Translations under genes and position numbers: made by a program | Origin: Blastocatellia bacterium | GTDB taxonomy: Bacteria > Acidobacteriota > Blastocatellia > Chloracidobacteriales > Chloracidobacteriaceae | Direction of reading: 5' to 3' | NCBI GenBank assembly: GCA_019695185.1 | Contig: JAIBAN010000020.1 | Span: 1 to 64,000, forward strand | DNA: 64,000 nucleotides | Part shown: in pieces, positions 36,501 to 54,396 of the stretch | Position numbering within the stretch: the first letter of the stretch is position 1 | Layout: each line of letters begins with the position of its first letter | Notes under the pieces: generated by a model | Database searches by the model: none | What the model was told of the DNA's origin: nothing | Seen by the model: the letters and a program-made list of their open reading frames with translations, nothing else

Positions 36501-39239
36501 AACAGTCTGGTGGGCAGCACCGCCGGTGACAAAATTGGCGAGTTCAGCGTCACGGCTTTGACCAACGGGAATTTTGTGGTCAACAGTCCGTCCTGGAGCA
36601 ATAGCGGGATGGCCAGCGCCGGAGCCTCAACCTGGTGCAACGGGTCCACCGCCGGGCCACGGACTGTCGGCCCTGTCAGTGTAGCCAACAGTCTGACAGG
36701 CAGCGCAGCCAACCATCAGGTGGGCAGTGCCGGGGCCATTCCTTTGACCAATGGAAATTACGCCGTGAGCAGTCCCGGCTGGGACAATGGAGCGGTGGCC
36801 AACGTGGGAGCCGTCACCTGGGGGAACGGTGTCAGCGGAAGCAGCGGTCCGGTGGGTGCATCCAACAGCCTGATGGGCACCAGTGCCAATGACGGAGTGG
36901 GAAATCTGACTGCCTTGCCCAATGGAAATTTTGTGATACGGACAGGAACCTGGGACAAACCGGGGCAGGCTGATGCCGGAGCCGTCACCTGGGGAAATGG
37001 AACCACCGGGCAATCCCTGACCGGATTTGGAGAACTCAATGCCCAAAACAGTGTGATTGGAAATGCAGCCAATACCCTGCTGGCCGGAGAGACTCCGGCT
37101 GATGGCGTCAATGGGTACTTTGCCGCAGTTTTCCAAAGTTCCGCCGAGGGCGGCAAAATAACGCTCGGTCTCAGCAATCCCGACCCGAACCAAATGACCT
37201 ACAGCCGGGGCCAGGGGTCAACCATGACCGTCACCACCGGATTTTTGACAAGTCTGCTCAATGTCGGAACCCCGGTCACCCTGCAAGCCAGCAACGACAT
37301 TACGCTGAACAGTCCGCTGACCGCCAGCGGCGGCGGGGATTTGACCTTGCAGGCGGGCCGGAGCGTGCTGCTCAACCAGCCCGTTTCCCTGGCCAACGGC
37401 AATCTGACCGTGATTGCCAACGACCTCTTGAGCAACGGCGTGGTGGACACCCAACGCGATGCCGGGCAGGCCCGCATCACGGCCACCGGAGCCATCTCCA
37501 CCGGAACCGGCACTGCCACGTTTGAAATTCGGACCGGAGCCGGGAAAACCAACTTGGCGAGCGGCGTGCTGCAACTGCTGACGGTTCAGGCCGGCGGGAT
37601 TTCACTTTCCAATAACGGACCTTCTGCCGGTTCTCAAATTCGGGTCACGGGGACAATCGGCAGCGGTCCCTGCTCCGGAGCCAGTCTGTGTGCCGCCAAT
37701 GGAGGGGGCGGCATTGCCATCAATCACCCCAACAGCAGCACCAACTTTTTGGTAGGAAACGCCGCTGCCAATGGGACGGCTGGCAGTCTGGTCAGCGCCA
37801 CCGCCACGGTTCAGTCACCCCTCACCATCATCAATGCGCCGGGGACGTTTACCCAAGGCAACATCAATGTGACACCGGGGTTGGTGTGCCCGACCATTTC
37901 CATCACCCCTGCCACCCTTCCCGGTGGGATAGTGGGAACTACCTATTCTCAGACATTGACCGGAACTCCGGCAGCAAGCTATGGGTTTTCCCTGCTTTCC
38001 GGGAACCTGCCACCGGGTATCGCCCTTGAACCCAACGGAAATCTAACCGGGACCCCGACTCAGGCAGGTGTTTTCAATTTCACCATCAGGGCTTTGAATG
38101 ACACAACCACCTGCTCCGGTGCGCAGGCATTGACGCTGACGGTGCTGGCCCGACCAAACTTGACTGCCGGTCCCGTCGCCAACCGTCAACAAGGAAGTTC
38201 AGGCACCATCGCCCCGATTGCCACCGTTTCGGATGTCGAAACCCCTGCTGGAAATCTGACGGTGACAGCCCTTTCCATTCCAACCGGAATCTCGGTCACC
38301 GGAGTTTCCAACCAGAATGGAACCGTGACCGCCACCATCGAAGCAAGTTGCACGGCAACTCTGGGAAACAACACCGTCGGGCTGCAAGTCACGGATGGAG
38401 ACGGTTTAACTGCCACTGCCAGCCTGACGGTCACCGTGACCGCCAATGAGAGTCCGACGTTGACCTACACTGCCGCAGGGATTGGTTTGGGCGGCAGCCG
38501 GTTTGTCAATCCCGCCACCGGACCGAGTGACACCGGAGTGATTTCCAGTCTGACGCTGCAAAGCCAGGGCACCTTCACCGGGACGGTTGGCCTGAACAGT
38601 CTGACGGGCGTGGTCACGCTTTCCAACGCGGGTCCTGCCGGAACCCATACGATTGTTATCCGGGCCACAGATAATTGCGGCTCCGTCACTAATGCCACCC
38701 TTGACGTGTCGGTGGCTGCCGCAACCCACACGGTCACCCAGTTTTACCCGGTGGCTTCCACCAGCGGAAAAACCGTTACCATTTCAGGCACGGGGTTTGT
38801 TCCAGGCAACACGATGGTCTTTTTCGGTGAAGGACGGTTGATTTCGGCTACCGTCACAAACGTGACCGCCACCTCCATCACGGTGACGGTACCAGCCTCC
38901 GCTGCCGGCAACCTTAACGGCTATTTGACCGTGCGGGTGAATGGGGTGGATGTCACAACGCTCAGCCTTGCTGCCAATGCTCCGGACCCCGGTAATCCGG
39001 CAGCCGTTTTTCCGGAGTTTGTCCTGTGGGGCGATGTCAATCGGGACGGCGTATTTGGCACCAATGACGTAGCGCTGGCGCGGGCTTTTCTGCAATTCCA
39101 GGCCACGCCAACAGCCCGGCAGGTGCTGGCTGCAGATGTGGTTCCGGCCAATGCCAACGGCAGCCGGGGCAATGGACAATTGTCCACCACGGACTTTTCG
39201 CTGTTGCGGGCGGTTTCGTTTGGACAGACATCCTTCTAG
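33546..39239 (+). CDS. Very large secreted TPS-like protein with ten ~60-residue repeats and TIG/dockerin-like C-terminus
   Basis: A 1,897-residue exported protein from ATG 33546 (ACAGG 6 bp upstream; TTG at 33525 is an alternative). After a signal peptide (WLAVVWCLVALGGAFVV) comes a filamentous-haemagglutinin/two-partner-secretion-like domain with WLIAPHGITFGKNARLNVGQ. A Gly/Thr-rich beta-helix follows, then ten repeats of about 60 residues (LTNGNYVV, GAVTWGNG, ANSLVG; DUF5650-like), one Ig-like (GTPTQAGVFNFTIRAL), cadherin-like segments, a TIG domain and a dockerin-like tail (WGDVNRDGVFGTNDVALARA) ending SFGQTSF. No TpsB pore gene is present in the window. Probable surface adhesin. Antisense frames of up to 295 residues are shadows. 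Confidence 0.85.
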   Translation: MQRFWLAVVWCLVALGGAFVVIEQAASARLETNLSQGNNRFLHPLKTNPLPIPDRLAGAIVSAPQQVRFSVNSLAIQAAGLELTTTGIPSAAEPIRRVELVVTGPEPVLIEGPLETRAFPQADVWLIAPHGITFGKNARLNVGQSFFAIAGKPDGGGFRFFSQHPGSLVNHAQLQVGTGKTLALLGGHLEQRGTLYAPGGTIVVAAPVGTKGAGSLKDKQNLMSPEFPLASFSFERGKQGGAAGILEQLGTIDVSGETGGAITIAGGLGLLGGEIRADARNQGGTVRLTGEHLTLTGMISASGSKGNGGNIRVETSTRTIQTSGSLLTVAGGQFGNGGEIALRSGTTGKTDGIFLSGTLAAGTAGLQGGSISLAGRKLDVVDGKLFAVGPTGGGTIRVGTMQEPGAADGAETVFVSPTSEVRTDSTSRGNGGEILVWSRMDTEMRGTISAAGGPQGGDGGQMDVSGLGAVTMNSDPATPAGKPGRLRLDPKNIVVSDTAGVFPQYDLVNPHPGTFTFGERVTVTGTGHLAVSNRNAIIGASAAGAVYLFHGLTGALISVLTGSSANDSVGNGGFVALTNGNYVVRSPNWNNPANGAGNAGAATWGSGVTGVSGFVSASNSLVGGSFGDNVSQNSIRALTNGNYVVVSTNWDNPVGSISDAGAVTWGNGASGSFGVVTAANSLVGTTANDFVGNSGVTPLANGNYVVGSQTWDNPTGPVDAAGAITWCDGTTGRSGPVTAANSLYGGTNFDQSGSGGIVALSNGNYVVASRFWDNPSGSLNNAGAVTWGNGTTGITGLISATNSLVGTTGNDAISAGGVVGLTNGNYVVCSPLWSNGGTTPISGAATWCDGTTGRTGPINASNSLIGTKVADLVGSGAIALSNGNYVVRSDQWDAPGGTANVGAVTWGDGAGGTFGPVSSANSLVGTTANDQLGSGSNGGITALANGHFVVRSPAWSNAGTANAGAVTWCNGETAGPRTVGAVSPANSLVGSTAGDKIGEFSVTALTNGNFVVNSPSWSNSGMASAGASTWCNGSTAGPRTVGPVSVANSLTGSAANHQVGSAGAIPLTNGNYAVSSPGWDNGAVANVGAVTWGNGVSGSSGPVGASNSLMGTSANDGVGNLTALPNGNFVIRTGTWDKPGQADAGAVTWGNGTTGQSLTGFGELNAQNSVIGNAANTLLAGETPADGVNGYFAAVFQSSAEGGKITLGLSNPDPNQMTYSRGQGSTMTVTTGFLTSLLNVGTPVTLQASNDITLNSPLTASGGGDLTLQAGRSVLLNQPVSLANGNLTVIANDLLSNGVVDTQRDAGQARITATGAISTGTGTATFEIRTGAGKTNLASGVLQLLTVQAGGISLSNNGPSAGSQIRVTGTIGSGPCSGASLCAANGGGGIAINHPNSSTNFLVGNAAANGTAGSLVSATATVQSPLTIINAPGTFTQGNINVTPGLVCPTISITPATLPGGIVGTTYSQTLTGTPAASYGFSLLSGNLPPGIALEPNGNLTGTPTQAGVFNFTIRALNDTTTCSGAQALTLTVLARPNLTAGPVANRQQGSSGTIAPIATVSDVETPAGNLTVTALSIPTGISVTGVSNQNGTVTATIEASCTATLGNNTVGLQVTDGDGLTATASLTVTVTANESPTLTYTAAGIGLGGSRFVNPATGPSDTGVISSLTLQSQGTFTGTVGLNSLTGVVTLSNAGPAGTHTIVIRATDNCGSVTNATLDVSVAAATHTVTQFYPVASTSGKTVTISGTGFVPGNTMVFFGEGRLISATVTNVTATSITVTVPASAAGNLNGYLTVRVNGVDVTTLSLAANAPDPGNPAAVFPEFVLWGDVNRDGVFGTNDVALARAFLQFQATPTARQVLAADVVPANANGSRGNGQLSTTDFSLLRAVSFGQTSF
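35223..37052 (+). repeat. Ten degenerate ~180-bp coding repeats (DUF5650-like)
   Basis: Each unit encodes about 60 residues with the pattern LVGTTAND, an NGNYVV core, a W-x-N step, GAVTWGNG and a closing ANS. The units are clearly homologous but diverged at DNA level, unlike the nearly identical Ig repeats at 20894-21415. The regular aromatic/Gly spacing suggests a repeated beta-sheet or propeller-like fold. Confidence 0.9.
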
Positions 39240-39380
39240 GACTGGGGACTGAGGACTGAGGACTGAGGGCACAGACAGAGTTTGGAGTCGGAGCAGAAAA
39301 ACGAAACTGAAGGACAGATTTTCCGGATAGGACTCGGCCCTCAGTCCTCAGTCCTCAGTCCTGAAAGGGTCCTCAGTCCT
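39239..39380. repeat. Head-to-head heptamer arrays (ACTGAGG / CCTCAGT)
   Basis: 39239-39268 carries GGACTGA-type units in forward orientation immediately after the TAG of the TPS-like gene; 39339-39362 and 39370-39380 carry the reverse units (CCTCAGT), ending at the stop codon of the convergent methyltransferase gene. This is the same heptamer and the same head-to-head arrangement as at 8108-8320, and can fold into a hairpin between the two convergent genes, where it might act as a shared terminator. Confidence 0.93.
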
Positions 39381-40061
39381 TCAGGTGGCAGGCTTTTCCC
39401 AAACCACCGTGTAGCGCCAGCGCACATGGCGAATCCACTGTGCGCCCGGCAAATGAGTGTGGCACATGGCCGCCACTTCGGACATGGAAAGGTACCGCTC
39501 GGTTCGTCCATGTTCATTCCAGGCGGCCCGGACTGCGGCTGGTTCGCGGAACCGTCCTGTTTTCCACCAACGGTTGAAGAGCGAAACTCCGGCAGCCACA
39601 GGAAATTCAAGCCGGTCATACCAGGTTTCAGCGGAACGCAAATCCTGAATCAACAAGGTTCCGCCCGGTTTGAGCAGTGTTTTCATGCGGGAAACGGCCG
39701 GTTCCAGGTCCAGGTGATGGAGTGTCGCCGCCGACACCACACAATCGAAAGCGGCTGTTTCCAAGGGGAGTTGAAAAAAATCCCCGCACCAAAAGGTCAG
39801 ATTGGTTTGGGTCTGGTGGTGGTTCTGGGCAATCCGAATCATTTGAGATGAAAGGTCCACGGCCAGCACCTGCGCCGCCTGCCGGGCCAGCAATCCCGCC
39901 AAAAACCCCTGCCCACAGCCAATGTCGAGCGCCCGCCCGCAGGGCCGGGGCAGGTGTTGCAACAGGAAATCTTCGTACAGCAAAGGATGGACGCTCTGGT
40001 TTTCAGTCAGGCAGGCAATCTGGTCAAAATCAGCGCGGATTTTTTCCGATGATGTCGTCAT
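39381..40061 (-). CDS. SAM-dependent class I methyltransferase
   Basis: A 226-residue Rossmann methyltransferase from the ATG at 40061 (MTTSSEKIRADFDQIACLTE); the open frame from 40115 overlaps the upstream gene. Motif I ALDIGCGQGFLAGLLA binds SAM; VLAVDLSSQMIRIAQ holds the acidic ribose ligand; DCVVSAATLHHLDLE is motif II/III. The layout resembles UbiE/ubiquinone-type and related small-molecule methyltransferases, but the substrate cannot be told. Its start is 5 bp after the stop of the zinc-ribbon gene, so the two are probably co-transcribed. Confidence 0.88.
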   Translation of the reverse strand: MTTSSEKIRADFDQIACLTENQSVHPLLYEDFLLQHLPRPCGRALDIGCGQGFLAGLLARQAAQVLAVDLSSQMIRIAQNHHQTQTNLTFWCGDFFQLPLETAAFDCVVSAATLHHLDLEPAVSRMKTLLKPGGTLLIQDLRSAETWYDRLEFPVAAGVSLFNRWWKTGRFREPAAVRAAWNEHGRTERYLSMSEVAAMCHTHLPGAQWIRHVRWRYTVVWEKPAT

Positions 40062-40066
40062 GCGGG

Positions 40067-40573
40067 TTACCAATAAAGCAGCCAATTGTCCGGCACAATC
40101 AGTTTTTGCCCACACCTGCCGTGGCGTGGGCCATTCCAGACGTTTTTATCTCTCACATTAAACCGGAAACCGCAGTGGGGGCATTTGGTCCAGCCATCCT
40201 CTGCAACTTCAATCGGGATGGGCTCAAGGTCTTCCGGATATTGTTTTTTTGTGTGAATGCCCTGTCCTGCACAGCTTGAACAATCCGTCACGGTCCATGC
40301 CTCCTGACTGCGGGAAAATAAAACTCCTTCCCCTTCGCAAACTGCACAGGTTTCGCAAACATAAGGGTTAAAATCATTTTCCTCTGAGGCAGGCTTGCTT
40401 TTGAAAACCCGGTATTGGTGGATGAGGATTTTGCTGCAATCACAACGACGATAGGGCGTTCCCCGCCTTCGCCGGACTGGGGTCAGACACTGTTCACACA
40501 AGTCAAATTGATAGGCTCCGGCAACGGTGCGGATTGCTCCCGGTATCAGGTCTGCATACGAATGGCTCTTCAT
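40067..40573 (-). CDS. Cys-rich zinc-ribbon protein with DnaJ-like CxxCxGxG motifs
   Basis: A 168-residue soluble protein with at least five Cys pairs: CEQC, CDC, CETCAVCEGEG, CSSCAGQG and CPHC. Two of them match the CxxCxGxG zinc motif of DnaJ-type chaperones, but there is no J domain. It may be a zinc-dependent protein- or RNA-binding factor. Genes upstream (PNPOx-like, 8 bp) and downstream (methyltransferase, 5 bp) are closely spaced on the same strand and form an apparent three-gene operon. Confidence 0.75.
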   Translation of the reverse strand: MKSHSYADLIPGAIRTVAGAYQFDLCEQCLTPVRRRRGTPYRRCDCSKILIHQYRVFKSKPASEENDFNPYVCETCAVCEGEGVLFSRSQEAWTVTDCSSCAGQGIHTKKQYPEDLEPIPIEVAEDGWTKCPHCGFRFNVRDKNVWNGPRHGRCGQKLIVPDNWLLYW

Positions 40574-40581
40574 GTCGCCCT

Positions 40582-41127
40582 CTATGGAAACGTAACTGAA
40601 ACCGGCACCCAGGTTTTCGGGTCGTTCAAAATCTGATGGGCGTAGCTCACGACTTCCATCCGGGAAACCTGCACCCGAATCAGCATGTAATCATTGCCTT
40701 TGTAGGTATCCTGGTAAAAAGCCGCCCATTCCTTTTTCCAGTGTTTTTCCTTCTCGGCCAGACTGTTGACCAGTTGCGCCTTGCCAATCAGCGTCACGTA
40801 ACCGCCGCCGTTTTCCACCACATAACAGAGTGTCACTCTGGGATTGCGTTTGATTTCAGCCACTTTTCGGGTGACCGGATTGGTGGCAATCCAAATCACC
40901 ATGCCTTCTTCAGGTGGAAACGGATCCACCACACGGGCCTGGGGCTGGCCGCTCCGGTCCAGGGTGACCAGGGTGCAATAACGGGCTTTCTGCATCATCT
41001 CTTTGGCCGCATTGATAATGCCGGCCCGGTCCGGTTTGGCTGGTTCCTGGGCGCAGACATCCATGACCGACCCCAACAGGAAAAGCAGCAAAAGAATAAA
41101 AGCGCATGGTTTCATAACAATGCTCAC
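40582..41127 (-). CDS. Exported pyridoxamine 5'-phosphate oxidase-like flavin-binding protein
   Basis: A 181-residue protein. Uncommonly for this fold it starts with a signal peptide (CAFILLLLFLLGSVMDVCAQ). The mature part is a split beta-barrel flavin-reductase/PNPOx-like domain: MQKARYCTLVTLDRSGQPQA, MVIWIATNPVTRKVAEIKRN and PRVTLCYVVENGGGYVTLIG, as in general stress protein 26-type proteins. Flavin or haem binding in the periplasm is likely; the reaction is unknown. It is the first gene of the three-gene group with the zinc-ribbon and methyltransferase genes. Confidence 0.85.
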   Translation of the reverse strand: MSIVMKPCAFILLLLFLLGSVMDVCAQEPAKPDRAGIINAAKEMMQKARYCTLVTLDRSGQPQARVVDPFPPEEGMVIWIATNPVTRKVAEIKRNPRVTLCYVVENGGGYVTLIGKAQLVNSLAEKEKHWKKEWAAFYQDTYKGNDYMLIRVQVSRMEVVSYAHQILNDPKTWVPVSVTFP

Positions 41128-41251
41128 ACAGAAAAAAGGAATTCAGCCAGTTTTCAACCTGCCCGAGGATGAGGGGCGCAGGCTTGCCACACATCCGTGC
41201 TCCAGCCCTGTTCCTTTGGTTTTTTTCAACACGTTGTTTTCCCTGGTCAAT

Positions 41252-41713
41252 TCAGGTTTGTACCGGGAAAACGGTTTTTCCCCGTTGTTTGAGTATTTGC
41301 TCGGAAAACTTCCCAATAAAACTACGCAAGGCAGACAGCGATTGCCAGTCTTTTTCCCTGTCGGACCACCAAACCGCAGTAAATGAGTTGGATCCTTCCC
41401 TGATTTCCAGTGAAAAGAGACATCCGTCTTTTCCGAAATTCCTGGCAGGTCGGGAGGGCAAACCGGTTTTCCGGATTTGGGAAAGGACTGGTTGAAGTTC
41501 CTCCAACGTGACCCTGGCTTCGACAAATTCTGTCGTTGGGTCCACTGGCCATTGGACCTTCATTGTATACTTTTTTCCTTTTTGAAACCGGATCAAAAAC
41601 CGGTCTGAGGTTTCCTCTTCGGCAAAAACTCTGAGTATTTCCACGACCCTGCTCGAACCAAATGCCGGGCCGCGATTGATGCGGATGACATCGGGAATTT
41701 CAAAGGGCTTCAT
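41252..41713 (-). CDS. Hypothetical protein, 153 residues
   Basis: I start at ATG 41713 (MKPFEIPDVIRINRGPAFGS); the open frame from 41782 adds an unconvincing Lys-rich head. Soluble, beta-rich, with a conserved-looking W..SDREKDWQSL segment and no signal peptide. I do not recognise a family. It lies between the PNPOx-like and 2H-phosphoesterase-like genes on the same strand, with gaps of 124 and 83 bp. Confidence 0.6.
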   Translation of the reverse strand: MKPFEIPDVIRINRGPAFGSSRVVEILRVFAEEETSDRFLIRFQKGKKYTMKVQWPVDPTTEFVEARVTLEELQPVLSQIRKTGLPSRPARNFGKDGCLFSLEIREGSNSFTAVWWSDREKDWQSLSALRSFIGKFSEQILKQRGKTVFPVQT

Positions 41714-41796
41714 TGCTTTGCTAAATCCGGTACTTCTCACAGGTTTTTCCTTCACCCGGTTTGCTTTCGCCAACCAACTCAATCAGAACCTAAAAC

Positions 41797-42291
41797 TCAC
41801 AAATGCTGCATTCCGGTTTCAACGTCGATATGGCTTTGGGGGCACAACCGCAATTGGGGCCGGGGTTTCCTTTCAACGGCTTTTTTCCTTCGCCCGATGG
41901 TGAAATGAAAATTGACCAGCCAGATTCCATCATCGCGCCTGAGGGTGACCAGTCCAAAATGCTCGCGCATTTCACATAACCTGGGACTGTAGCAATCCAC
42001 CCAGAAATGGAGTCCGTTGCCATCAAAGAGCGTCGGACCGAAACGGAATGAAACCGACTCGCCCACAAAAACAGTTCCCCAGTCCGTTTTGTTGCGACAG
42101 GGAGCTTCGTCTTTCATGATGGAAAGATGGGGCCGGGCGGCTGGTTTGAAGGGTATACCCAACGGGGTGAGCAACTCCAATAAAGTTCCATGAGCCTGCG
42201 CCGGAACAGCCAACAGATACCAGTCTGGTTCGTAAAACACCGTGCCGGTAAGTTCGGGAGCTGAATCGTATGCTTCAAGCGGAGTGGACAT
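41797..42291 (-). CDS. 2H phosphoesterase-like protein
   Basis: A 164-residue protein starting at MSTPLEAYDSAPE (42291). Two motifs of the form H-x-S/T, RPHLSIMK near residue 55 and NFHFTIGRR near residue 128, are separated by about 70 residues and fit the paired catalytic histidines of the 2H phosphoesterase/LigT superfamily, which hydrolyse 2',3'-cyclic phosphates and related RNA ends. The strands and FGPTLFDGNG/HFWVDCYSPRL between them also fit. The assignment rests on the two motifs only. There is no close neighbour on the same strand within 80 bp. Confidence 0.55.
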   Translation of the reverse strand: MSTPLEAYDSAPELTGTVFYEPDWYLLAVPAQAHGTLLELLTPLGIPFKPAARPHLSIMKDEAPCRNKTDWGTVFVGESVSFRFGPTLFDGNGLHFWVDCYSPRLCEMREHFGLVTLRRDDGIWLVNFHFTIGRRKKAVERKPRPQLRLCPQSHIDVETGMQHL

Positions 42292-42761
42292 CGTGACCTG
42301 CAATCAAAAAACGTTGCCAACGCAGATAAACCCCTGCCCCTAAAGAAAAAACCAGTCCCTGGCTGTGAGAACCAGGACCGGCCTGGCACCTTCCGGGTTG
42401 CGGGTTACGGGTTGGAAAATTGGAAAAGGCGGCAATCACGGAAAAGGTTACACCACATCGTCCGTACTCTAGCAAAGCCGGAACCCCGAACCAGTGTCAA
42501 TTTTTTCTGCCATATCCCGTGGCATTCAAGGTCAATCACCTTACACAACCTAAAACTTCAGGTTTTCATTCAGGTTTTTCCCGATGGGAAAATCAGGAAA
42601 CCAGGGTATTGTCCCGAACCCCACTTCACTGGAAAATGCACCATCCTGCCGCGTCAACTAATTCCCTGCACCCAAAGGACTGTCTTTCTGATTGTGGGAA
42701 AGCGCTGTTTGCGAGGTGCCAACTGGAAATCGCCAATTAAACAAATTTCCCAAAGGTGTTT
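42292..42761. other. Intergenic region with a GGGTTRC heptamer tract
   Basis: A 470-bp divergent region upstream of the histidine kinase. At 42393-42413 three 7-base units (CCGGGTT, GCGGGTT, ACGGGTT) repeat. An AAAGGTG ribosome-binding site lies at 42753-42758 before the kinase ATG. I see nothing else. Confidence 0.55.
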
Positions 42762-44378
42762 ATGTCGCTTCAGTCTCATGAAAAAATCTGGCAATTAATT
42801 CCGGGGGATGTTTCGCACCAGCAGGGTAACCCTTTAGTTGATTCTCACGCCCCCGCAAAAGAGTTTCCCGCCATCCTCTCGTACCTCAACTCGTTTCAGG
42901 ATGTTGTGATGGTACTGGAAGGCAGCCATTCATATGGGAGAGAACCTTGGATTGCTTCTGTGAATCAGGCGTTTGAAGACCTGACCGGATATGCGCTTGA
43001 GGAGGCCGTAGGTCATCCGCTGACTTTTTTACATGGCCCGCAAACCCGGCTGACAACCTGGAATCGCCTGAAAACAGCCCTCTTGCATTATGAGCCAATC
43101 CGCGAGGAGCTGGCTTTTTATAACAAAAACGGGGACGTCTTCTGGCTGGAACTGGACTTGGCTCCGCTGGGCCGGATTGAACAGGATACAATGCAGTGGC
43201 TGCTCATTGGCCGGAATGTGACCGGACGGAAAACCCTTGAAAATCAGGTCAAAGAACAAGACAGCCTGGAAAAAGTGCGGCAGTTGTCAGCCGGAGTGGC
43301 CCACAACTTCAACAACCTTCTGATGGTGCTGATGGGGTACAGCGAAATGCTGCTGGGCAAATTTCCGGTTGACGATCCGAAACGGACCATGATTGCCAAA
43401 ATCCAGGAAACAACCCAGCAAATGGCACAGATCACCAGCCAGTTGGTCGCTTTTGGACAAACCAGCTCTTCCAACCCCAAACCAGTAGACCTGAGCCAGG
43501 AGGTGGCACAACAGAAAAGTCGAATTCAAGGCTTGCTGGGGGATCAAATCACTGTGTCCACCAACCTCCGCCCCAACCTGGCAACCGTCCTGATCGACCC
43601 TTCTCAACTGGAGCAGGCTTTGGTGCAATTAAGCCTGAATGCCCGTGAAGCCATGCCCAACGGTGGTACGCTGTCCTTTGAAACCAACGTGGTTTTCCTT
43701 GATCGGGAAACCGCCCTCCACCAACTCGACTGCAAACCCGGTTTTTATATTGAACTGCTCGTTTCGGATACGGGGAAAGGCATGAAACCCGAGGTCAAAA
43801 CTCATGTCTTTGAACCGTTCTTTACCACCAAAGGTGCCTGGGAAGGAAGCGGGCTGGGGCTTTCCACCGTGTATGGCATCGTGAAACAGAACGGCGGAGT
43901 GATTGAAGTATCCAGCCAGGAACAGTGTGGGACCCAATTCCGCCTCATGTTCCCGGTTTCGCTCCCTCAAGCAGCGGACAGCCAGGACCTTTCGGGTCAA
44001 ACAGAAGTGGATAAATCCGTGATTCTTCTCATCGAAGACACCGCCGAGGTCAGGGAACTCTTGCACTATGAACTTGAATCCAAGGGTTATACAGTATTGG
44101 CAGCCGCCCACGGGCGCGAAGCCATCCGGTTGGCCAGTCAATGTCCCCACCCTATCCATTTTGTTCTTTCAGATGTGATGATGCCGGGAATGAACACCAG
44201 AAATATGGTGGACCAATTGAATAAACTGCAACCAGGCATCCGTTATTTGTTTATGAGTGGATTTTCCCAGGAAATATTGGAGCAACATGACCTTCAGGCT
44301 CCCACCGGGTGTTTTCTTCAGAAACCATTCACCTCCGAAGAGATGAATCTCAAACTGAACCAACTCTTCAACCATTAA
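42762..44378 (+). CDS. PAS-containing hybrid histidine kinase with C-terminal receiver
   Basis: A 538-residue cytosolic sensor kinase (ATG 42762 preferred over GTG 42756 because AAAGGTG is then correctly spaced). Domains: PAS/PAC (about residues 40-160, with FEDLTGYALEEAVGHPLTFL), HisKA with phospho-His in LSAGVAHNFNNLLMVLMGYS (about 180), HATPase_c with N-box LVQLSLNAREAMPNGG and G-boxes VSDTGKGMKP and GSGLGLSTVYGIVKQNGG, and a receiver domain (VILLIEDTAEVRE, FVLSDVMMPG with the acceptor Asp, LQKPF). No TM segment, so it senses an internal ligand or redox state through PAS. A single-domain response regulator follows 88 bp downstream. Confidence 0.93.
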   Translation: MSLQSHEKIWQLIPGDVSHQQGNPLVDSHAPAKEFPAILSYLNSFQDVVMVLEGSHSYGREPWIASVNQAFEDLTGYALEEAVGHPLTFLHGPQTRLTTWNRLKTALLHYEPIREELAFYNKNGDVFWLELDLAPLGRIEQDTMQWLLIGRNVTGRKTLENQVKEQDSLEKVRQLSAGVAHNFNNLLMVLMGYSEMLLGKFPVDDPKRTMIAKIQETTQQMAQITSQLVAFGQTSSSNPKPVDLSQEVAQQKSRIQGLLGDQITVSTNLRPNLATVLIDPSQLEQALVQLSLNAREAMPNGGTLSFETNVVFLDRETALHQLDCKPGFYIELLVSDTGKGMKPEVKTHVFEPFFTTKGAWEGSGLGLSTVYGIVKQNGGVIEVSSQEQCGTQFRLMFPVSLPQAADSQDLSGQTEVDKSVILLIEDTAEVRELLHYELESKGYTVLAAAHGREAIRLASQCPHPIHFVLSDVMMPGMNTRNMVDQLNKLQPGIRYLFMSGFSQEILEQHDLQAPTGCFLQKPFTSEEMNLKLNQLFNH

Positions 44379-44466
44379 CAAACAGAAGTCCGTAGGTTGC
44401 TGTTTTTCCTAGCCGGGAAGGGTTCTGTATCACTTGCTGAGATTAAGTGAAGACTGAGATACAGCC

Positions 44467-44961: not shown

Positions 44962-45131
44962 ACCGGGCCACGCGGATTGCGGATGCATTGTCCGTTTACA
45001 AATTTAGGTTGTGTCTTGAAATTCAGGAAACTCTGGTTGATTGGGGGGATCCTTTCACGTCTTTCCTGATTTTCAAGACCCTGGTTTAGCAAACCCAACC
45101 GATGACGGGTCGCCTGCCGCCGGGACCCGGT

Positions 45132-45635
45132 TCATCGGCTGAACTGTCGCAGGTGATGGTCAGCGTGTAAATAACCCCAGCGGAGCCATTCCGCCTCGCT
45201 CATGCGGCCAAAAATGGGATGCTCCCCCCATTCAAAAGAGCGTGGGGATGCAGTCATCTTTTCAATCAGAAAAACCAGTTCTGCCACATCCCGGACGAAT
45301 TCCACTGGCGGGGTGCCAGCTTGTTCCTGGTCGAATTCAGGGCGGGTGACAATCCCTTTGGGCCATCGCAGCGGAACCTGCAAGGCAATCCACTTGACCA
45401 CCACCCGATGAAAAATGGTTCCGACGAGCGGTGTTTGGCGTTCACCCCAGGCACATTTGAAGGCATCGTTGAGGTGACACACCATCTGATGAACATTCAT
45501 TCGTCCCCACCGGCGGGGACTCTGCGGCGTCAAAAGGGCAATCCGGGCCAGAATCTCCGCTTTATCGGTAGCATGCGCCAATGTCTTCACAAACGGTTCC
45601 TTCCTCTCGTCCGGTGTGACCGGTTCCCTATTCAA
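45132..45635 (-). CDS. DUF1569/DinB-like protein
   Basis: A 167-residue protein of the four-helix DinB/YfiT superfamily, DUF1569 branch: RWGRMNVHQMVCHLNDAFKC at residues about 43-62 carries the first His, and RMSEAEWLRWGYLHADHHLR at the C-terminus holds the remaining metal-binding His pair. Members bind divalent metals; some use mycothiol or bacillithiol, but the reaction here is unknown. It overlaps the 3' end of the EreA/ChaN-like gene (45628-46941) by 8 bp on the same strand and is thus probably co-transcribed. Confidence 0.78.
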   Translation of the reverse strand: MNREPVTPDERKEPFVKTLAHATDKAEILARIALLTPQSPRRWGRMNVHQMVCHLNDAFKCAWGERQTPLVGTIFHRVVVKWIALQVPLRWPKGIVTRPEFDQEQAGTPPVEFVRDVAELVFLIEKMTASPRSFEWGEHPIFGRMSEAEWLRWGYLHADHHLRQFSR

Positions 45636-46941
45636 ACAGCGTCGAAGCGTGAATTTCCGGAATCACAATCGCCATGTCATACCCCCAAATAAACTCTTCC
45701 AGGCGCGGGTCAATCTTTCCGAGTTTCCGCCCTTGCGCCAAAGGGCGCAGCGGACGCAAATCCAGGAGGGTCCAGTTTTTGCCCTGTGCGGCAGCCAACA
45801 AGGGTTTGACGTCGAAAAAATTCATTTCCTCCACGACATTATAGGGTTTCTTCTTGTCAGCCTCATTGCCAACAAAAGGAAAATATCCATTGGTGGCTCC
45901 GCCCGCGCCCACCACCACCACGTGGAGCGACTGGGAACCATTGGAGGCCGCCAGTTCAGCCGCCAGATTTCCCATATCATAGACATTCAGCCAGCTTCGC
46001 CCTCGTTTTGTGTGCATCATGCCAAACTTGAACAGAACTTTGGGCAGCTTGCCGTCCCGTTTGTAGGCCTGTTTGTAATAATCCATAAAATGCTGCTTCA
46101 TGAGCTTGGAACGCTGCGTATTGGAGGCATAGCCCTGATTCCCGGCATTTTTCAGGTACACTTCCCAGCTTACCTTCAGTTCCCGGAAAATTTCTGCAAC
46201 CGCCGGGTTCGGCACTCCTTCCAGCGCCTTTTCCAGCCGGTCAAAATCCTCCGGACGGGCAGATGCCATAAAGACCGAGGCCGGGTTTTTGCTTTCGACC
46301 ATGTGGGCAAATTCGGTTTTGAGCGGCTGATACATTTCCTGGACAACCGCCTCCGCCTTGGTTTTGCGAGTCAACTCGACCAATCGTTCAAAATGAAAAT
46401 TTGCTGAGAGGATAAACTCCTGGTCGAGCCCCCACAGCCAATTGGTTTTTTGCCTGGTTTTTGAACCAATGGCCTGCACCATGGCGCATTCCTCTTTCCA
46501 AAAGTAAAACGGAATGCCGAAAGGATACTGTTTGTTCATAGTTGCCAGAGCTTCGGTACTGTTTGGCCCTCTCGCCACCTTTTCCAGATGCCGGGCTGAA
46601 AGCGGGCCGATTTCCGAGGCAAAATATTCAAATCCGGCTGGTGCCAATTCCTCAAAGAGCATGGCGGTCAACTGTGGCATTTCCGTCATCCCGTGGTCTT
46701 CGCCTAACAGCACAAACTGGGCTGCCTTGGCTTCCCGGTGTAACACATCGGCTCCGGCACCGGTCAATTTTCCCCCTTCAACCGTCAGGGGATAGGCATT
46801 CTTGGTCAAGGCAGCTCCCAGAGGGTCCGCCGGCTTTTCCTGAGCCACCACCGGCCAACGGGTTCCCTGAAATGCCACGGCTGCCACCAAAAGGGCAAAA
46901 AACCACCAACGCAATTGAAAGAAACGCATAATTTTCCTCAA
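45628..46941 (-). CDS. Secreted EreA/ChaN-like protein, second paralogue
   Basis: A 437-residue exported protein with a signal peptide (WWFFALLVAAVAFQGTRWPV). The superfamily signature QFVLLGEDHGMTEMPQLTAM and GFEYFASEIGPLSARHLEK is intact, with further conserved segments IPFYFWKEECAMVQAI and VLFKFGMMHTKRGRSWLNVY. The overall organisation resembles the protein at 9919-11235, though the sequences are diverged. In this superfamily the acidic residue and His pair may act in hydrolysis or metal/haem binding. It precedes the DUF1569 gene and follows the small membrane protein by 21 bp, giving an apparent three-gene operon. Confidence 0.72.
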   Translation of the reverse strand: MRKIMRFFQLRWWFFALLVAAVAFQGTRWPVVAQEKPADPLGAALTKNAYPLTVEGGKLTGAGADVLHREAKAAQFVLLGEDHGMTEMPQLTAMLFEELAPAGFEYFASEIGPLSARHLEKVARGPNSTEALATMNKQYPFGIPFYFWKEECAMVQAIGSKTRQKTNWLWGLDQEFILSANFHFERLVELTRKTKAEAVVQEMYQPLKTEFAHMVESKNPASVFMASARPEDFDRLEKALEGVPNPAVAEIFRELKVSWEVYLKNAGNQGYASNTQRSKLMKQHFMDYYKQAYKRDGKLPKVLFKFGMMHTKRGRSWLNVYDMGNLAAELAASNGSQSLHVVVVGAGGATNGYFPFVGNEADKKKPYNVVEEMNFFDVKPLLAAAQGKNWTLLDLRPLRPLAQGRKLGKIDPRLEEFIWGYDMAIVIPEIHASTLFE

Positions 46942-46962
46942 AGAAGAACGATGGGTTTGAAT

Positions 46963-47568
46963 TTACCCAACCTGAGCTGGTTGGTACTGACGCAAGCGCA
47001 GGAACAAAACAAAATGCGTGGCAAAAATAAGCGGAACCAAAAAGGTTGGCAACAGGGCCAGCGGCAATTTTAACAAGGCGTTTAACTGGCTGAAGTCGTT
47101 CAGCCCAATCCGGGCCGCAGTTCCCACCACAAAAATAATGTCCAGCAGGCCTAAAATATTCCAGACAAAATAGACTCTCCGGAGAGAAAGTCCGGTTGGA
47201 GGCCCCCAGAATAACAACCCCACCGCCCCGCTGGCAGCCACGATGTCACCCCATCCGCCAGGGACGGCAAAGGCATAAGGAAGCTCACCACGTCCATACA
47301 AAACCAGAAAATACATCCCCACGAAACGACCCAGATGCGGAATCAGAAACAATCTCATGTCAACCTGTTCGGTCCATGCCCGAACGGGCGGAACCCTGGT
47401 GAAAACCAAAAAGGAAAGGAAAGCCAAACCTACAATCAACAACTGTGGGGCCGGCGGGCGCAGCATTTGGGTCAATCCCAAAGCACCAGCCAAAAAGGCT
47501 AACCCAAACCATATCGCAACCCCTGTGACAATCGTCGTGGTATGAACCAAAGCGGGTTTCTGTGCCAT
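46963..47568 (-). CDS. Small multi-pass membrane protein
   Basis: A 201-residue protein from ATG 47568 (MAQKPALVHTTTIVTGVAIW); the frame is open from 47664 but the added part is charged and lacks support. Six hydrophobic segments, including TTTIVTGVAIWFGLAFLAGA, LLIVGLAFLSFLVFTRV, GDIVAASGAVGLLFWG, ILGLLDIIFVVGTAARI and LLPTFLVPLIFATHFVLFL. No family recognised. It lies just upstream of the EreA/ChaN-like gene, on the same strand. Confidence 0.72.
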   Translation of the reverse strand: MAQKPALVHTTTIVTGVAIWFGLAFLAGALGLTQMLRPPAPQLLIVGLAFLSFLVFTRVPPVRAWTEQVDMRLFLIPHLGRFVGMYFLVLYGRGELPYAFAVPGGWGDIVAASGAVGLLFWGPPTGLSLRRVYFVWNILGLLDIIFVVGTAARIGLNDFSQLNALLKLPLALLPTFLVPLIFATHFVLFLRLRQYQPAQVG

Positions 47569-47717
47569 GAACCAAACCTCAAGCCTGAATTTTTGTTGGA
47601 TGTGCGGCTCTGAACGTTTGACATGGGTTTGTTTGTTCGATTCCGATTGAATTTGGCTTTTCACCCTTCACCATTCAAAACCTGCTTGGTCCTCAGTCTT
47701 CAGTCCTTGTTTGCTCC

Positions 47718-49466
47718 TCAAAATGTGGCTTGTCCAAAGGAAACCGCCCGCAAAAATGAAATATCGGCCGTGGTGATTGCCCCGTCGCCCCGACAAATAC
47801 CATTGACCGGTGTGACATCGGTGGCCAGTCGTTGGCGAACTGTGGGAGTTGCCTGAAATTGCGAAAACGCACGGCTTAAAGCCACATCATTGGAATTGGC
47901 CAAGGCTCCGTCTCCGTTGGTATCCCCCCACAACACAAATTCCGGAAAAGTGGCGGTTCCGTTGCACGGCGGAGTTGAGGTATCCGGCAGGTTGCTCGTG
48001 GTGGCATCATTGCCATTCACCCGCACGGTCACATAGCCGTTGAGATTGGCGGTTCCGGTTCCCGAACTCGGAATGGTCACCGTCAAGGTCGTGGAATTGG
48101 CCACCGTCACCGCTGCGGCGGGAATCAAGCGGGTGCCTCCGAAAAAGACCTGGGTACTGCCGCTGACGAAATTGGTGCCCACAACGGTCAAGGTTTTCCC
48201 TGGAGCGGAGGCAATCGGGGTGAAACGGGTGATAGTTGGCACCGGGGTCACACTTTCCCGGAAATTGGAAACCGTCACCGCTGTGTTATTGAGTGATTGC
48301 GCATTGTCCCTGGTTCCGGCCAGTCCGGTCGGAAGTCCGGTGTAGTTCACATTCGGGTTGGAAAAATGCGCCACCCTGGTGCATCCCTGGGTACACTCCG
48401 AACTGTAGGACATGACCGTGCGAAATTGTCCATCCACAAAATGACCGTAAGAATAGGCGTAAGCCGCCGTACCGCCGTTGGCTGGATCGTGCTGACTGCC
48501 CTGGGTATGGCCCAGTTCATGGGCAAAGGAAAGATTTCCTACCGCACAGCCCCGGTCGGTAATTGAATAGGCACTGGAGGCAAAAGTGGTATTGACATTG
48601 GTCATTACATAGCCGATGCCACAGGCGCTGGGAAGCACCTCCACAATCAGCGACATGAGGTCAGCCCGGTACTGGTCCCGCAGAGCCTGGGCGGTTGTAT
48701 TCGCCCGAAAGTTGGAAAGCATCTGGCTGGCTGTTCCGGTCTCGCTGAAATCCAGTTCCCCGGTATAAACCATTTGCAAACGGGTGGTGATATTGCTGTT
48801 GGCATAGGCGGTGTTGGTTATATCCACTGCACTTTGGGCGGTGGCCTGAATCTGGGTGGTGCCGCCCGCTGCCGTGCGGGCCGCCGCTGTGTACAGCACC
48901 ATCACATCAATCCGGCTCCCGTTATCCACTTCCGGAGTGCCACTGCGCACGACTGTTGGTTCAACCGCATTGGAGGCTGCAACCGGGACCGCCCCACCAC
49001 AAGGTTTGAAACTGGAAAAATCTACCTTTTCAATCACATGGCGGTTTCCCGCCTGGGGTATCACCTGAAAGGTTCCAGTGGGAAGATAGAGTAACCCTGA
49101 AACAACTCCGTCCACCGCTGAAATGGTCACGTCATGCTGGCTCCCGGTCGGATGTGGGGCCTTTCCCCGCCAGGTGAAGCTGTTCATCGAACGGCCTTCA
49201 AATTCAGTCCGGCCCACCGGAAATGTGTTTCCCGCAGGTGTTTCAACCTCCACCACCCCAACCTCTGGCATCCGTAGGGCTTCCAAATTGATCCGGACTT
49301 CCGCCGCTTTACCGGGTACCGTGGCGGCCAGGTACTCAAACAAACGTACCCTTTTTTGAAGTCCCGCTCTGGCTTGCCAACGGGCTTCAGTCCACCCTGG
49401 CAGTCCAATCAACCCCATCCCTAAAACCATCAGAAAAAACCATTTTCCCAGGTGCCGTCGAATCAT
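47718..49466 (-). CDS. Secreted reprolysin-like zinc metalloprotease with TIG/dockerin-like C-terminus
   Basis: A 582-residue exported protease from ATG 49466, chosen because GAGG lies 5 bp upstream (49469 is the alternative). Signal peptide: FFLMVLGMGLIGLPGW. The prodomain includes TGSQHDVTISAVDGVVSGLL. The zinc motif HELGHTQGSQHD (about residues 316-327) and the Met-turn VMSYSSE place it in the M12-type metzincins. The last ~174 residues are a TIG domain (FTPIASAPGKTLTVVGTNF) plus a dockerin-like EF-hand module (WGDTNGDGALANSNDVALSR) ending SFGQATF, shared with two other proteins here. Degenerate CCTCAGT heptamers lie just downstream of the stop (47689-47707). It is divergent from a small hypothetical gene. 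Confidence 0.88.
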   Translation of the reverse strand: MIRRHLGKWFFLMVLGMGLIGLPGWTEARWQARAGLQKRVRLFEYLAATVPGKAAEVRINLEALRMPEVGVVEVETPAGNTFPVGRTEFEGRSMNSFTWRGKAPHPTGSQHDVTISAVDGVVSGLLYLPTGTFQVIPQAGNRHVIEKVDFSSFKPCGGAVPVAASNAVEPTVVRSGTPEVDNGSRIDVMVLYTAAARTAAGGTTQIQATAQSAVDITNTAYANSNITTRLQMVYTGELDFSETGTASQMLSNFRANTTAQALRDQYRADLMSLIVEVLPSACGIGYVMTNVNTTFASSAYSITDRGCAVGNLSFAHELGHTQGSQHDPANGGTAAYAYSYGHFVDGQFRTVMSYSSECTQGCTRVAHFSNPNVNYTGLPTGLAGTRDNAQSLNNTAVTVSNFRESVTPVPTITRFTPIASAPGKTLTVVGTNFVSGSTQVFFGGTRLIPAAAVTVANSTTLTVTIPSSGTGTANLNGYVTVRVNGNDATTSNLPDTSTPPCNGTATFPEFVLWGDTNGDGALANSNDVALSRAFSQFQATPTVRQRLATDVTPVNGICRGDGAITTADISFLRAVSFGQATF

Positions 49467-49621
49467 CATAACCTCACTTTGTCTTGAAGAGGAATTCGAA
49501 AACCTTTCGAATATTTTCGAACAAAACACTCTTGCCAAACGTTTCCAGAAACAGGCGGGACACCCCTCGCCCAACTTTCAAAGACTTGTTGTAAGCTTAT
49601 ATTTGAAAAGGAGTTATTGTC

Positions 49622-50053
49622 ATGGCCAAAGCCAAACGCGTTGCCAAATCTCAACAGGAAATTTTGAACTCCGCCTTGACCGAATGGGCAACCTTGTCCC
49701 AACAAATCGCCCCCCAAGTATATCGCATGAAGCAACTGGAAGCCCAAATTGATGAAACCATCAAAGCCATTTCCCTCGACGCCGAAGGCCAATTGCACAG
49801 CAATTCCATCGAAACTGAAACTGCCAAAGTTGCCCTCATGGTCGCCAAGGTGCGAACCGTTGACGCCAAACGGTTTATCACCAGTGTGGCAGAGACCAAC
49901 CGGAACGAAGCCTTTTGGGATTGCCTTTGGGTGGGAGCCGCACGAGCCGAAAAATTTCTGCCAGCCGACGTTTTTTCAACCTTGGCTGAGGTCAACACCG
50001 AAGTCAGAATCAAAATGTGGTTGAAACCGACGTTTCCCCCGACCATCACCTAA
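49622..50053 (+). CDS. Hypothetical protein, 143 residues
   Basis: A soluble, helical 143-residue protein (AKRVAKSQQEILNSALTEWA; ISLDAEGQLHSNSIETETAK) with a well-placed AAGGAG ribosome-binding site 8 bp before the ATG. The pattern of a long amphipathic helix then a compact domain with WDCLWVGAARAEKFL is not one I recognise; a phage-type accessory protein is one weak possibility. It is convergent with the subtilase gene and separated from it by a bidirectional terminator. Confidence 0.65.
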   Translation: MAKAKRVAKSQQEILNSALTEWATLSQQIAPQVYRMKQLEAQIDETIKAISLDAEGQLHSNSIETETAKVALMVAKVRTVDAKRFITSVAETNRNEAFWDCLWVGAARAEKFLPADVFSTLAEVNTEVRIKMWLKPTFPPTIT

Positions 50054-50192
50054 GTTCCCCAACGGATTTGGACTGCGGTAAATGGTCAAGGTGCGGAGGG
50101 TTTCTCCACCAACTGCGCTTCACCATTCACAACCACCTGCGAATTTATTTCCGAACTTGTTCCCCGGCCCATCTTTCTCCAAATAAAAAAAA

Positions 50193-50228
50193 ATGGCCGC
50201 CCTCAACCGGGGCGGCCATGCTTGTTTT
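50193..50228. terminator. Bidirectional rho-independent terminator
   Basis: A stem ATGGCCGCC/GGCGGCCAT (50193-50219) with an 8-9 nt loop, preceded by A8 and followed by CTTGTTTT, lies between the convergent 143-residue gene and the subtilase gene and can terminate transcription from both sides. Confidence 0.9.
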
Positions 50229-50259
50229 AAGGCTTTTCAGGCTGAAATCCAGGAAAAAA

Positions 50260-53200
50260 TTAGAAGTCAGTCTGTCCAAACGAAACGGCCCGGAGGAAAG
50301 CAATGTCAGTGGCTCCGAGTGTTCCGTCACCCCGACAGGCTCCATTAACCGGCACCACGTCGGCAGCCAGCCGCTGCCGCACGGTCGGGGTTGCCTGGAA
50401 TTGGGTAAAGGCCCGCGCCAAAGCAACGTCGTTTGCCTGAGCCCGCAATCCATCTCCCGTGATGTCGCCCCACAGCACGAATTCCGAGAACGTGGCCGTC
50501 AGGCTGCATGGCGGAGTGGAATTATCCGCCAGTGCCTGGGTTGTCGCCTGGGAAGCGCCGTCCACCACTGTCAGATAGCCGTTGATGTTTCCGTTCCCTG
50601 TGGTTGAAGCAGGCACCACCACATTCAAAGTTTGGGCGTCCACAAACGTCACTGAGGCAGCCGGAACCAAACGCGTTCCGCCAAAGAAGACCTGCGAAGC
50701 CGCCGTAAAGCCAGTTCCTTTGACCACAATCGTTTTACCTGCTGCCGAGGCAATCGGGGCAAAACCAGTCACGGTCACACTGCCTGGAGCCGCACTACAG
50801 CACGTGTAGGCAGACCGGGTGATTTCCAATTGCCAACAGAACAGCGTACCGGTGTCCTGGGTGGCATCGTCGTTAATACTCAGGGTCCAGGTTCCATTCG
50901 ACGCTTTTCCGTTCAGGGCCGACAGCACCTGATCGGGTTTGAAGGAACCGGCATAGGGCGGCGTGCCGGCGCTGATGGCTGTGGCGGCGGCATCGTCAAA
51001 CACCGTAAAGGTGCCAGTACAATCGTTGTTTCCGCTGCCATAGTTGTCACCGCTGCTGCCCCGGCGGTTGGAAAGCACGATTGACGTGTTATCCGGAGCA
51101 ATCAAAGTCAGGGCAATGTCGCCGTCAAAGGTGTGATTCAACCGCACCTTGACATTGACATCCGTGATTTGACCGGAATCCGGCACGTTGACGGTTGAGG
51201 TGACCGTGTTATTATCCGGAATCGGCACACTGATTCCACCACTGCTGTAGGTATTGGTGGCCGGAGCCCCCAAGGCCCCCACCGTAAAGTTAAAGCTGAC
51301 TGTTCCCAAGTTGGTGGCTCCATCCTGTAAGGCAAAAGTCGCCGTCAGCACTCCGCCACAGGTCAATCCACTGCTGGCCGTAAAAGTAAAGGAGCGGGTG
51401 GCAGGCCCGCCGCCACTGTTCAAGGCACCATAGTTTTGGGCTGCGCTCGGAGCCACCACACCACCTGTTGCCTGCAAGGTAGCCGTCAGGTTTGTGGTGC
51501 TCGCCGTACCGATATTGCGCAGAGCGAAATCAAGGGTCACCGTTTCCCCTGGATCAATCGCGCCGTTGGCCGGCGCGCAGTTCTGAGCCGTAATCAGGCT
51601 GTTGTCCGCATTGATCACCGGCAAACTGGCCGCCGTGGCATTGACCACCACCAGGGCAAAATGCTGGTCGGTCAAATCGGCATTTCCCAAAACCCCATCG
51701 CCGTTGAGCGCGGTGGCCGTCACTTTGACCGCCATGGTCGTTCCGACAGCCAAGCCAGCCGGAAGGAACACGTTTTCAACGTTGTTTTTTGTGTCAAAGG
51801 AACCGCCCGCGATGGAAAGTCCACCGCTCAACACATTGCCTTTGTAGGTATTTCCGCCCACAGACACTTCCAAATCAAGGTTATTGACCAGGGCCGGGTC
51901 ATTCAGGGCCGGCGGGTCGGTCCAGACCAGGGTGACACGCAGGGGTTTGGTTGCATCGGCTACCGTTCCGGTAAAGACATAGTTGTCTCCAGGACTGGAA
52001 AGTGTTTGGGTTTGGTCAATGTATTGGGTTGGAATGCCCGTGTTGAGCACATTTTTGAGGTTCATGCGGCCCCAGCCTTCATCACCGTTCGGAATGGGCG
52101 ACGTGGCTCCGGTTCCTGTCATTTCAACAGCTCCGTTGATGAGCGCGGCTTTGACAAGGGCCGGGCTGGGGTTGGCACCGGCGTGGCCGTTTTTCCAAAA
52201 CTGGGTAAAGAGGGCTGCGCCACCGGAAACCAACGGACAGGCATGGGAAGTGCCACTGCTCCACCGGTGGTTCGTGTCAATATTGCCAAACAACACGTCC
52301 GGCCCGGAACGTCCGCCTGACACACCATCGCCAGGAGCCGTAATATCCGGTTTGATGCGACCATCAGCCGCCAATCCGCGACTGGAAAAGCTGGGAACCT
52401 CTTCAAGGCTGGTAAATGCCGGGTCAAGCTCTGAGCGAAGATTTTCACTGGCTGCCACTGCAATCAGGTTTTTGGCCACTTTCGGACGGGTCAGGCCGCT
52501 GGTTCCCTGATTTCCGGCGGAGAAAATAATCAACAACGGATCCACCGTCCCGGCAGTCGAGCCATCCCGCACGAACCCGTCAAACTGGGCTGTGAACGAG
52601 TCATAGGCATTGCTGTTCGTTCCATTGCCCCAACTGTTGCTGCTGATGAAACCCGGTACACCGTTGACCCCGTTGGTCGTCAAGGTGTCGTTGGCCGTAT
52701 CGGCTTCCGTGCCGGTATAGCCTGTGCGCAGAAACGGAATGTTGACAATATGAGCTTTGGGGGCAACACCCAAGCCGTAGTTGTAACCGGTTGGGTCCAA
52801 AGAACCAAAAGGCGTATCGCCCGCAATAATCGTCGCGTTCAAGTGGCCATGGCCATCGGCTCCGACCGCCGCTCCCCGCAGGGGGCCGTCTTTGGCATTT
52901 GTGGCCGTCGTGTAAAAACCACCGTCACCTGGTATGCCGACGCCGTCGTCCACCACCGAAACCGTCACATTCTGGCCATTGACCCCAAACTGGGTTTGCG
53001 GATTGTAACCGGGGGCGGCAATCGTGCCGGGGCTGGTGTAGTTTCCGGCGATAATCTGGTTGGCCCGTTCATCCTCTTTGGTCGGCTTGTAATACGGGTC
53101 CATGGCAATCACATCACTCAGGCTCAGGATGGTTTTGACCATTTCCGGTTTGAGCCGTGCCCGAATCACATTGAAATAGTTATTTGGCAGGGTAATCCGG

Positions 53201-54018: not shown

Positions 54019-54396
54019 TATGAAACTCCTTACTGTGCGTGAATAGAACTGACAGTCCTGGGTGGCCGCCATGAGAGGTTTCCCGTGCCAGGTTGTGTCG
54101 GTACCAAACAAATGTGATTTTGGAAATGTGTCGTTGCAAAGCGACTTGCCCAACCGTCCAACAGTCATTTCGTAGGTTGAATTTCCAGTGCAGGGCCTGA
54201 GCAAGCTGGACAGTGTGAACACCACAACCACACTGTTGAGGGTGATGGAATAGGTGCGGGCTTTGACCAATCGAGTGGAATGGTTTGAAATGACTGAGCG
54301 GTCGCCCCAAACTAACGACTTTCGGGCAAACTGTCAAGAAAGTACAGGAAAAACCGACCCGCGCGAGGAACCCCGCGCAGGATGAGAGAAATGAAA
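54019..54396. other. Intergenic region upstream of the subtilase
   Basis: 378 bp between the subtilase start and the tRNA-terminator hairpin at the integration site. It should hold the subtilase promoter. An open frame running through it lacks a ribosome-binding site and recognisable sequence. I see no repeat. Confidence 0.5.

Follow-up and report, generated by a model that had tools for sequence, protein, structure and literature searches.

A TIG-dockerin tail on secreted proteins of an acidobacterium and its divergent candidate cohesins

Cohesin-dockerin systems are already known; what is new here is probably an acidobacterial variant, in which a TIG domain and a divergent dockerin together form a C-terminal tail and the candidate partners are divergent cohesins. 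The tail ends three secreted proteins encoded in a 64,000-nucleotide stretch of Blastocatellia bacterium DNA (assembly GCA_019695185.1, contig JAIBAN010000020.1, positions 1 to 64,000; the window), and it recurs across the same genome, an 8.33-Mb draft in 222 contigs (G000).

The closest described systems include the classical cellulosomes of Clostridia and Ruminococcus (type I/II). There, as here, a dockerin ends many secreted enzymes, the partners are cohesins with a jelly-roll fold, adaptors carry both modules, and an immunoglobulin (Ig)-like module stands beside the dockerin (X-dockerin). In contrast to the classical systems, neither a multi-cohesin scaffoldin nor a CBM3 scaffoldin was seen in this draft genome; the cargo consists mostly of proteases, propellers, and adhesins and includes a single GH44 enzyme; the modules are too divergent for the standard models; and the host, judging from its phylum and its secretin, is Gram negative. 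Because we found neither a multi-cohesin scaffoldin nor a cargo of glycoside hydrolases, we do not consider this system a cellulosome. A 2024 survey of cellulosome bacteria covers 33 species, mainly from four genera, and does not mention Acidobacteria in its text (PMC11557425). The titles and abstracts returned by a text search on cohesin, dockerin, and Acidobacteria contain no description of such a system.

Another point of comparison is the hypothetical “planctosome” of freshwater Planctomycetes (Andrei et al. 2019, PMC6461901), a noncellulosomal cohesin/dockerin set with an anchoring protein, a two-module adaptor, and cargo of the M12B reprolysin and M14 carboxypeptidase types. The acidobacterium likewise has adaptors (C136 and C86) and peptidase cargo (M12B, M14, M28, and S8), but it belongs to another phylum, its TIG-dockerin dyad is constant and has 41 carriers, its dockerins fall into two subtypes, its cohesins are divergent, and no lamin-tail anchor was seen. 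The noncellulosomal modules of Archaeoglobus fulgidus and Clostridium perfringens are isolated or few, whereas those described here form a genome-wide expansion. What the two cases share is the use of the fold outside cellulose degradation, and 2xdh and 2jh2 are among the VIA structural matches listed for our cohesin model; these noncellulosomal cohesins and dockerins are treated by Peer et al. 2009 (as cited in PMC6461901). Finally, the X-module-dockerin (XDoc) of CipA and ScaA has a beta-sandwich module that rigidly precedes the dockerin, and the model of our tail (predicted template modeling [pTM] score, 0.90) suggests a similar arrangement; here, however, a TIG/IPT domain fills this position, and it is carried on cargo, not only on scaffoldins.

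The tail and its dockerin-like module

The three tails of the window lie at 38718-39236 (+), 47721-48242 (-), and 50263-50784 (-), and each reaches its stop codon. Tails 2 and 3 are 57-59% identical to tail 1 (177 alignment columns), and all three have the order TIG, linker, F[PS]EFVLWGD, EF-hand 1, EF-hand 2, and LRAVSFGQxxF. Open reading frames (ORFs) and alignment confirm the positions and module order given in the original prediction, whose motif PIASAxGKT reads PVASTSGKT in the first protein. The carriers had been called otherwise unrelated, and they do fall into different Pfam/TIGR families: an FHA-type N terminus with DUF5650, an M12B reprolysin, and an S8 subtilase with a P domain. Naming three carriers was correct as far as it went but understated the matter. 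A profile started from the three window tails (~172 residues) found 41 tail-ended genes in the genome, 38 of them beyond the window's three (E 1e-33 to 1e-87), and this recurrence is far beyond chance. All 41 tails end at the stop codon or a few residues before it. Three carrier genes run off contig edges, and nearly all of the complete ones begin with a hydrophobic signal-like stretch, as called by a heuristic.

The distribution of the tail is narrow. Four copies were found in a same-family relative (G003), and the profile search found the full tail in none of the other 56 relatives, nor anywhere beyond these two genomes among 297 genomes sampled across the phylum or among 162 genomes of the class. 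Matches in G001, G014, and G419 do not extend beyond the TIG part and were not counted. In the GTDB r220 contigs, our sole reach into other phyla, one pattern scan each returned no relative of the tail and none of the cohesin; the scan for the tail used a ten-tail subset, the 45-tail profile being too diverse for a pattern scan. With 41 carriers and four more copies in one relative, the data support the proposed lineage-specific module on unrelated secreted cargo. Two outcomes had been named beforehand as speaking against that proposal, a scatter over phyla and a restriction to three carriers, and in the genomes searched we found neither.

What is this module? The AlphaFold model of 50263-50790 is one compact unit (predicted local distance difference test [pLDDT] score, 96.2; pTM, 0.90) in which a TIG beta-sandwich is followed by three helices. 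By both profile and structure comparison, the TIG part matches the TIG domains of CGTase, NFAT, and EBF, and Pfam recognizes TIG in all three of the isolated window tails (E 1.7e-6 to 1.9e-8). The C-terminal ~72 residues, positions 104-175 of the 45-tail profile, match the solved dockerins 2ccl (E 9.6e-5), 4uyq, 5nrk, 1ohz, and 3ul4, with E values of about 1e-4 to 4e-3. Pfam Dockerin_1 reaches one of the three window tails below threshold (E 0.026); its cutoff is passed by one divergent copy of the 41 (23.3 bits) and by one copy in G003, and the rest fall below. Structure prediction had been suggested as a check, and it yielded a confident model with clear TIG matches; among the matches listed by Foldseek and VIA for the whole tail, however, there are TIG-type folds only and no dockerin. 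Because of this, the dockerin call rests on the sequence profile and the calcium-loop pattern, and these two lines of evidence support the dockerin-like nature originally assigned to the tail.

The calcium-loop pattern is well conserved. Loop 1 has the usual form of a dockerin calcium loop, with D1, G6, and D12 invariant (45/45), and among the calcium-ligand positions, D1 and D12 of loop 1 and D12 of loop 2 are present in 45/45 tails and D1 of loop 2 in 43/45. The type I dockerin pattern of tandem F-hand loops (D/N/D...D, each with a helix) is present, and in the model the helices span residues 119-129 and 160-170. In loop 2, extra residues are inserted between D1 and D5 (ADVxPxNGxxRGDG), possibly the reason that the Pfam model overlooks the dockerin in most tails. 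A cysteine in the linker and another in loop 2 are both present in 11 tails (e.g., 50263-50784 and 47721-48242) and both absent in the other 34; given that they are present or absent together, the pair likely forms a disulfide.

Candidate cohesins and their linkage to the tail

The statement that the window holds no cohesin is true, and yet the genome has seven, mostly missed by the standard family models. PF00963 gave three matches in the genome: one falls on the C-terminal domain of a secretin, and the other two, both below the cutoff (E 0.003 and 0.0098), lie in the C176 and C100 genes, which adjoin tail genes. A profile built from these two domains and two further C136 domains picked by eye found seven cohesin-type domains (E 1.6e-71 to 6.7e-16), five of which PF00963 does not match. 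The AlphaFold model of the C176 copy has a pLDDT of 95.8, and its best match is 6kgf with both Foldseek (E 2.7e-8) and VIA (Z 16.9; root mean square deviation, 2.4 over 141 residues). Of the 50 VIA matches listed, 49 are cohesins or cohesin-like modules; the fold is that of the cohesin jelly roll. PF00963 and PF00404 mostly miss both modules, and systems of this kind may therefore be overlooked elsewhere.

Five of the cohesin proteins carry no dockerin. In those of C100, C136, and C1, the cohesin is N-terminal and Ig-like stalks come after it, C100 also having a region of NHL repeats; those of C176 and C70 have the cohesin at the C terminus, with NHL, TIG, and fn3 domains as well in C176. The remaining two are adaptors that carry their own TIG-dockerin behind the cohesin (C136, 422 residues; C86, 1096 residues). 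Pfam cohesins above the cutoff occur in 34 of 58 related genomes, with few dockerin matches. Pfam cohesin matches are abundant, for example, in G045 (22), G026 (17), and G037 (11), members of other families of the class in which Pfam dockerins are few, and these genomes may hold further unrecognized dockerins.

Gene order ties the cohesins to the tail. At C176, a cohesin gene is followed on the same strand by a tail gene after a gap of 52 bp, and the same order is found at C57 and C80 of G003 with a gap of about 140 bp. At C100, a 258-residue protein with little beyond a signal, TIG, and dockerin is followed by the 1198-residue cohesin-Ig-NHL protein. The C136 row comprises a 1854-residue carrier, a 218-residue TIG-dockerin protein, the 422-residue cohesin-TIG-dockerin adaptor, and a 1533-residue cohesin protein. 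In total, a tail gene adjoins three of the five dockerin-free cohesin genes in this genome and two of three cohesin genes in G003, for which random gene order would give chances near 2e-5 and near 5e-6, respectively. A further two of the seven cohesins share one polypeptide with a tail, and in the C86 adaptor, the cohesin directly precedes a normal tail.

Co-occurrence with a partner gene had been proposed as a check: among the 162 class genomes, the divergent cohesin family is found in G000 (seven), G003 (three), and G001 (one, weak), and the full tail occurs in the first two of these. Because G000 and G003 are relatives, we lean more on gene order than on this co-distribution. The N-terminal cohesin genes at C1 and at C109 of G003 (L109 and L111) have similar neighbors, two membrane-protein genes with ends that match by eye; the two cohesin genes look orthologous, and no tail gene stands beside either.

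Both modules also divide into corresponding clades. The four C-terminal cohesins (C176, C70, G003 C57, and G003 C80) form one clade with support of 99/96, and four divergent dockerins (C176, C182, G003 C57, and G003 C80) form another with support of 97/85. In clostridial dockerins, positions 10 and 11 of the calcium loops decide specificity. In our cargo tails, these positions are small and polar (TN, AN, TT, and ST); in the cohesin-neighbor clade, they are mostly hydrophobic (AL, GI, AV, and AF, with one QR); and in the C136 adaptor, they are LD/LD. From the clades and these residue classes we infer a minimum of two distinct specificities, together with a step that runs through an adaptor.

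A proposed assembly system and its rivals

In total, the observations outlined above make it quite probable that the tail is a TIG-dockerin dyad, that the cargo dockerins bind the cohesins of the genome, and that the two form a two-tier assembly or surface-attachment system. In this model, the cargo would be exported by its N-terminal signal peptide, and its C-terminal dockerin is predicted to bind calcium and plug into a cohesin on a partner protein. A stalk protein of Ig-like or NHL type would hold the cohesin, with docking either direct or through an adaptor, and proteases, beta-propellers, hemagglutinin-like adhesins, lipase-like enzymes, and one glycoside hydrolase would thereby be held on or near the cell.

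Several observations weigh against this model. Loop 2 is longer than that of a classical dockerin, and the cohesin profile matches solved cohesins weakly (1aoh, E 0.21), for which reason the cohesin identity rests on the fold. No multi-cohesin protein was found, the seven cohesins lying in seven separate genes of a draft in which repeats may be broken, and we saw no clear membrane anchor in the cohesin proteins. Neither the C1 nor the C70 cohesin gene adjoins a tail gene, and the co-distribution is essentially that of two related genomes.

The tail had been proposed as an anchoring or secretion tag, and of these, anchoring is most likely. That the tail is instead a secretion or sorting signal like the C-terminal domains of the type IX secretion system (T9SS), recognized by export machinery in the outer membrane instead of by cohesins, is improbable and is not supported by our data. 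Its strictly C-terminal position on many unrelated secreted cargos is indeed what T9SS tags show, but the module is a TIG domain with a calcium-loop dockerin and not the Ig-like T9SS domain, and the cohesins beside tail genes would go unexplained. SprA (TIGR04189) has no match in this genome, and the control genomes were equally silent.

The cargo bears on a second alternative. By Pfam, the peptidase carriers are S8 subtilases, three M12B reprolysins, and M14 and M28 peptidases; other carriers are a GH44 protein, the one glycoside hydrolase among the 41, a glucose/sorbosone dehydrogenase, two lipase/PGAP1-like proteins, and one SpoIID protein. Propeller carriers have Kelch, FG-GAP, SBBP, and BNR/sortilin-type repeats together with Ig-like repeats, and of two DUF5650 carriers, one has the FHA N terminus and the other is cut at a contig edge. 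The tails of C100_5224 (BNR/sortilin) and C164_10083 (reprolysin) are 82% identical on cargo without a BLAST match, whereas the reprolysins C125 and C164_10083 are full-length relatives with tails only 63% identical; tail and cargo thus have different histories, and the module has passed between genes. Such differing histories would also suit a calcium-stabilized end cap or generic adhesive domain that has no dedicated partner and spread by domain shuffling. We give this alternative little credence, given the adjoining and fused cohesins, the shared distribution, and the matching cohesin and dockerin clades.

Very unlikely, finally, is docking of the cargo on the C-terminal cohesin of the C112 secretin, in secretion or outer-membrane tethering: this secretin has a Pfam cohesin above the cutoff and would provide the missing outer-membrane anchor, but cohesin-tailed secretins also occur in the tail-less family members G002 (Pfam) and G004, Pfam cohesin matches in ORFs of ~900 residues recur across the family, and the C112 secretin is linked to no tail gene that we found. 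Because relatives of its cohesin occur in tail-less members, that cohesin is not distributed as the tail is and is probably the older of the two, and we rejected it as the specific partner. The secretins ending in a cohesin are G000:C112:2-1990 (L096) and, from relatives in the family, L130, L131, and L133 (all four Secretin plus Cohesin in Pfam), and L132 has the same C-terminal sequence.

Returning to the TIG-dockerin assembly, we speculate, as a scenario with an even chance of being right, that in this acidobacterium a cohesin-dockerin system underwent an independent expansion and became a general socket for surface display, with two separate specificities. The ancestral pair would be the C-terminal cohesin and the hydrophobic-type dockerin, whose genes have stayed paired in two genera; the second code would pair the N-terminal or adaptor cohesins with polar-type dockerins and would have been copied onto over 30 proteases, propellers, and adhesins that are unrelated to one another. 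The dyad of TIG and dockerin would then be a new X-dockerin-like class, mostly invisible to current annotation. If the proposed assembly system is real, cellulosome-like assembly is not confined to fiber degraders and can organize much of a Gram-negative secretome. The gene neighbors in two genera, each a cohesin and a dockerin predicted to match, are ready test pairs, and new orthogonal cohesin-dockerin pairs would be useful as protein-assembly tools.

Carriers and neighboring genes in the window

The first carrier, at 33525..39239 (+), is a secreted hemagglutinin-like protein with an FHA N-terminal domain (TIGR01901), ten DUF5650 repeats (PF18888), and Ig-like domains. Its tail comprises a TIG (IPT) domain and linker at 38718..39008 (+; PF01833, E 3.5e-8) and a dockerin module of two EF-hand half repeats at 39009..39236 (+) that ends in SFGQTSF, the latter assigned, as in the other two tails, from alignments and the match of the 45-tail profile to solved dockerins. 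The second, at 47718..49574 (-), is a secreted M12B reprolysin-type metalloprotease (PF13688, E 6e-18), with TIG and linker at 47949..48242 (-; PF01833, E 1.9e-8) and the dockerin module at 47721..47948 (-), ending in SFGQATF. The third, at 50260..54270 (-), is a secreted S8 subtilase (PF00082, E 2e-28) with a P domain (PF01483). Its TIG and linker lie at 50491..50784 (-; PF01833, E 1.7e-6), where the AlphaFold model gives TIG fold matches with Z up to 9, and its dockerin module, covered by the same model, lies at 50263..50490 (-) and ends in SFGQTDF.

Elsewhere in the window, 19679-22594 encodes a secreted protein of 971 residues that combines five He_PIG domains with NHL repeats. This stalk-like protein was considered as an in-window partner and rejected, its N terminus matching neither cohesin profile; at the C terminus, however, this protein and the C100 cohesin protein are similar, each ending in TGQF[KR][ST]P[GS]KI[KR]. 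A 210-residue ORF at 54595-55227, immediately upstream of the subtilase carrier and in the same orientation, encodes a GH19 chitinase/lysozyme-type domain.

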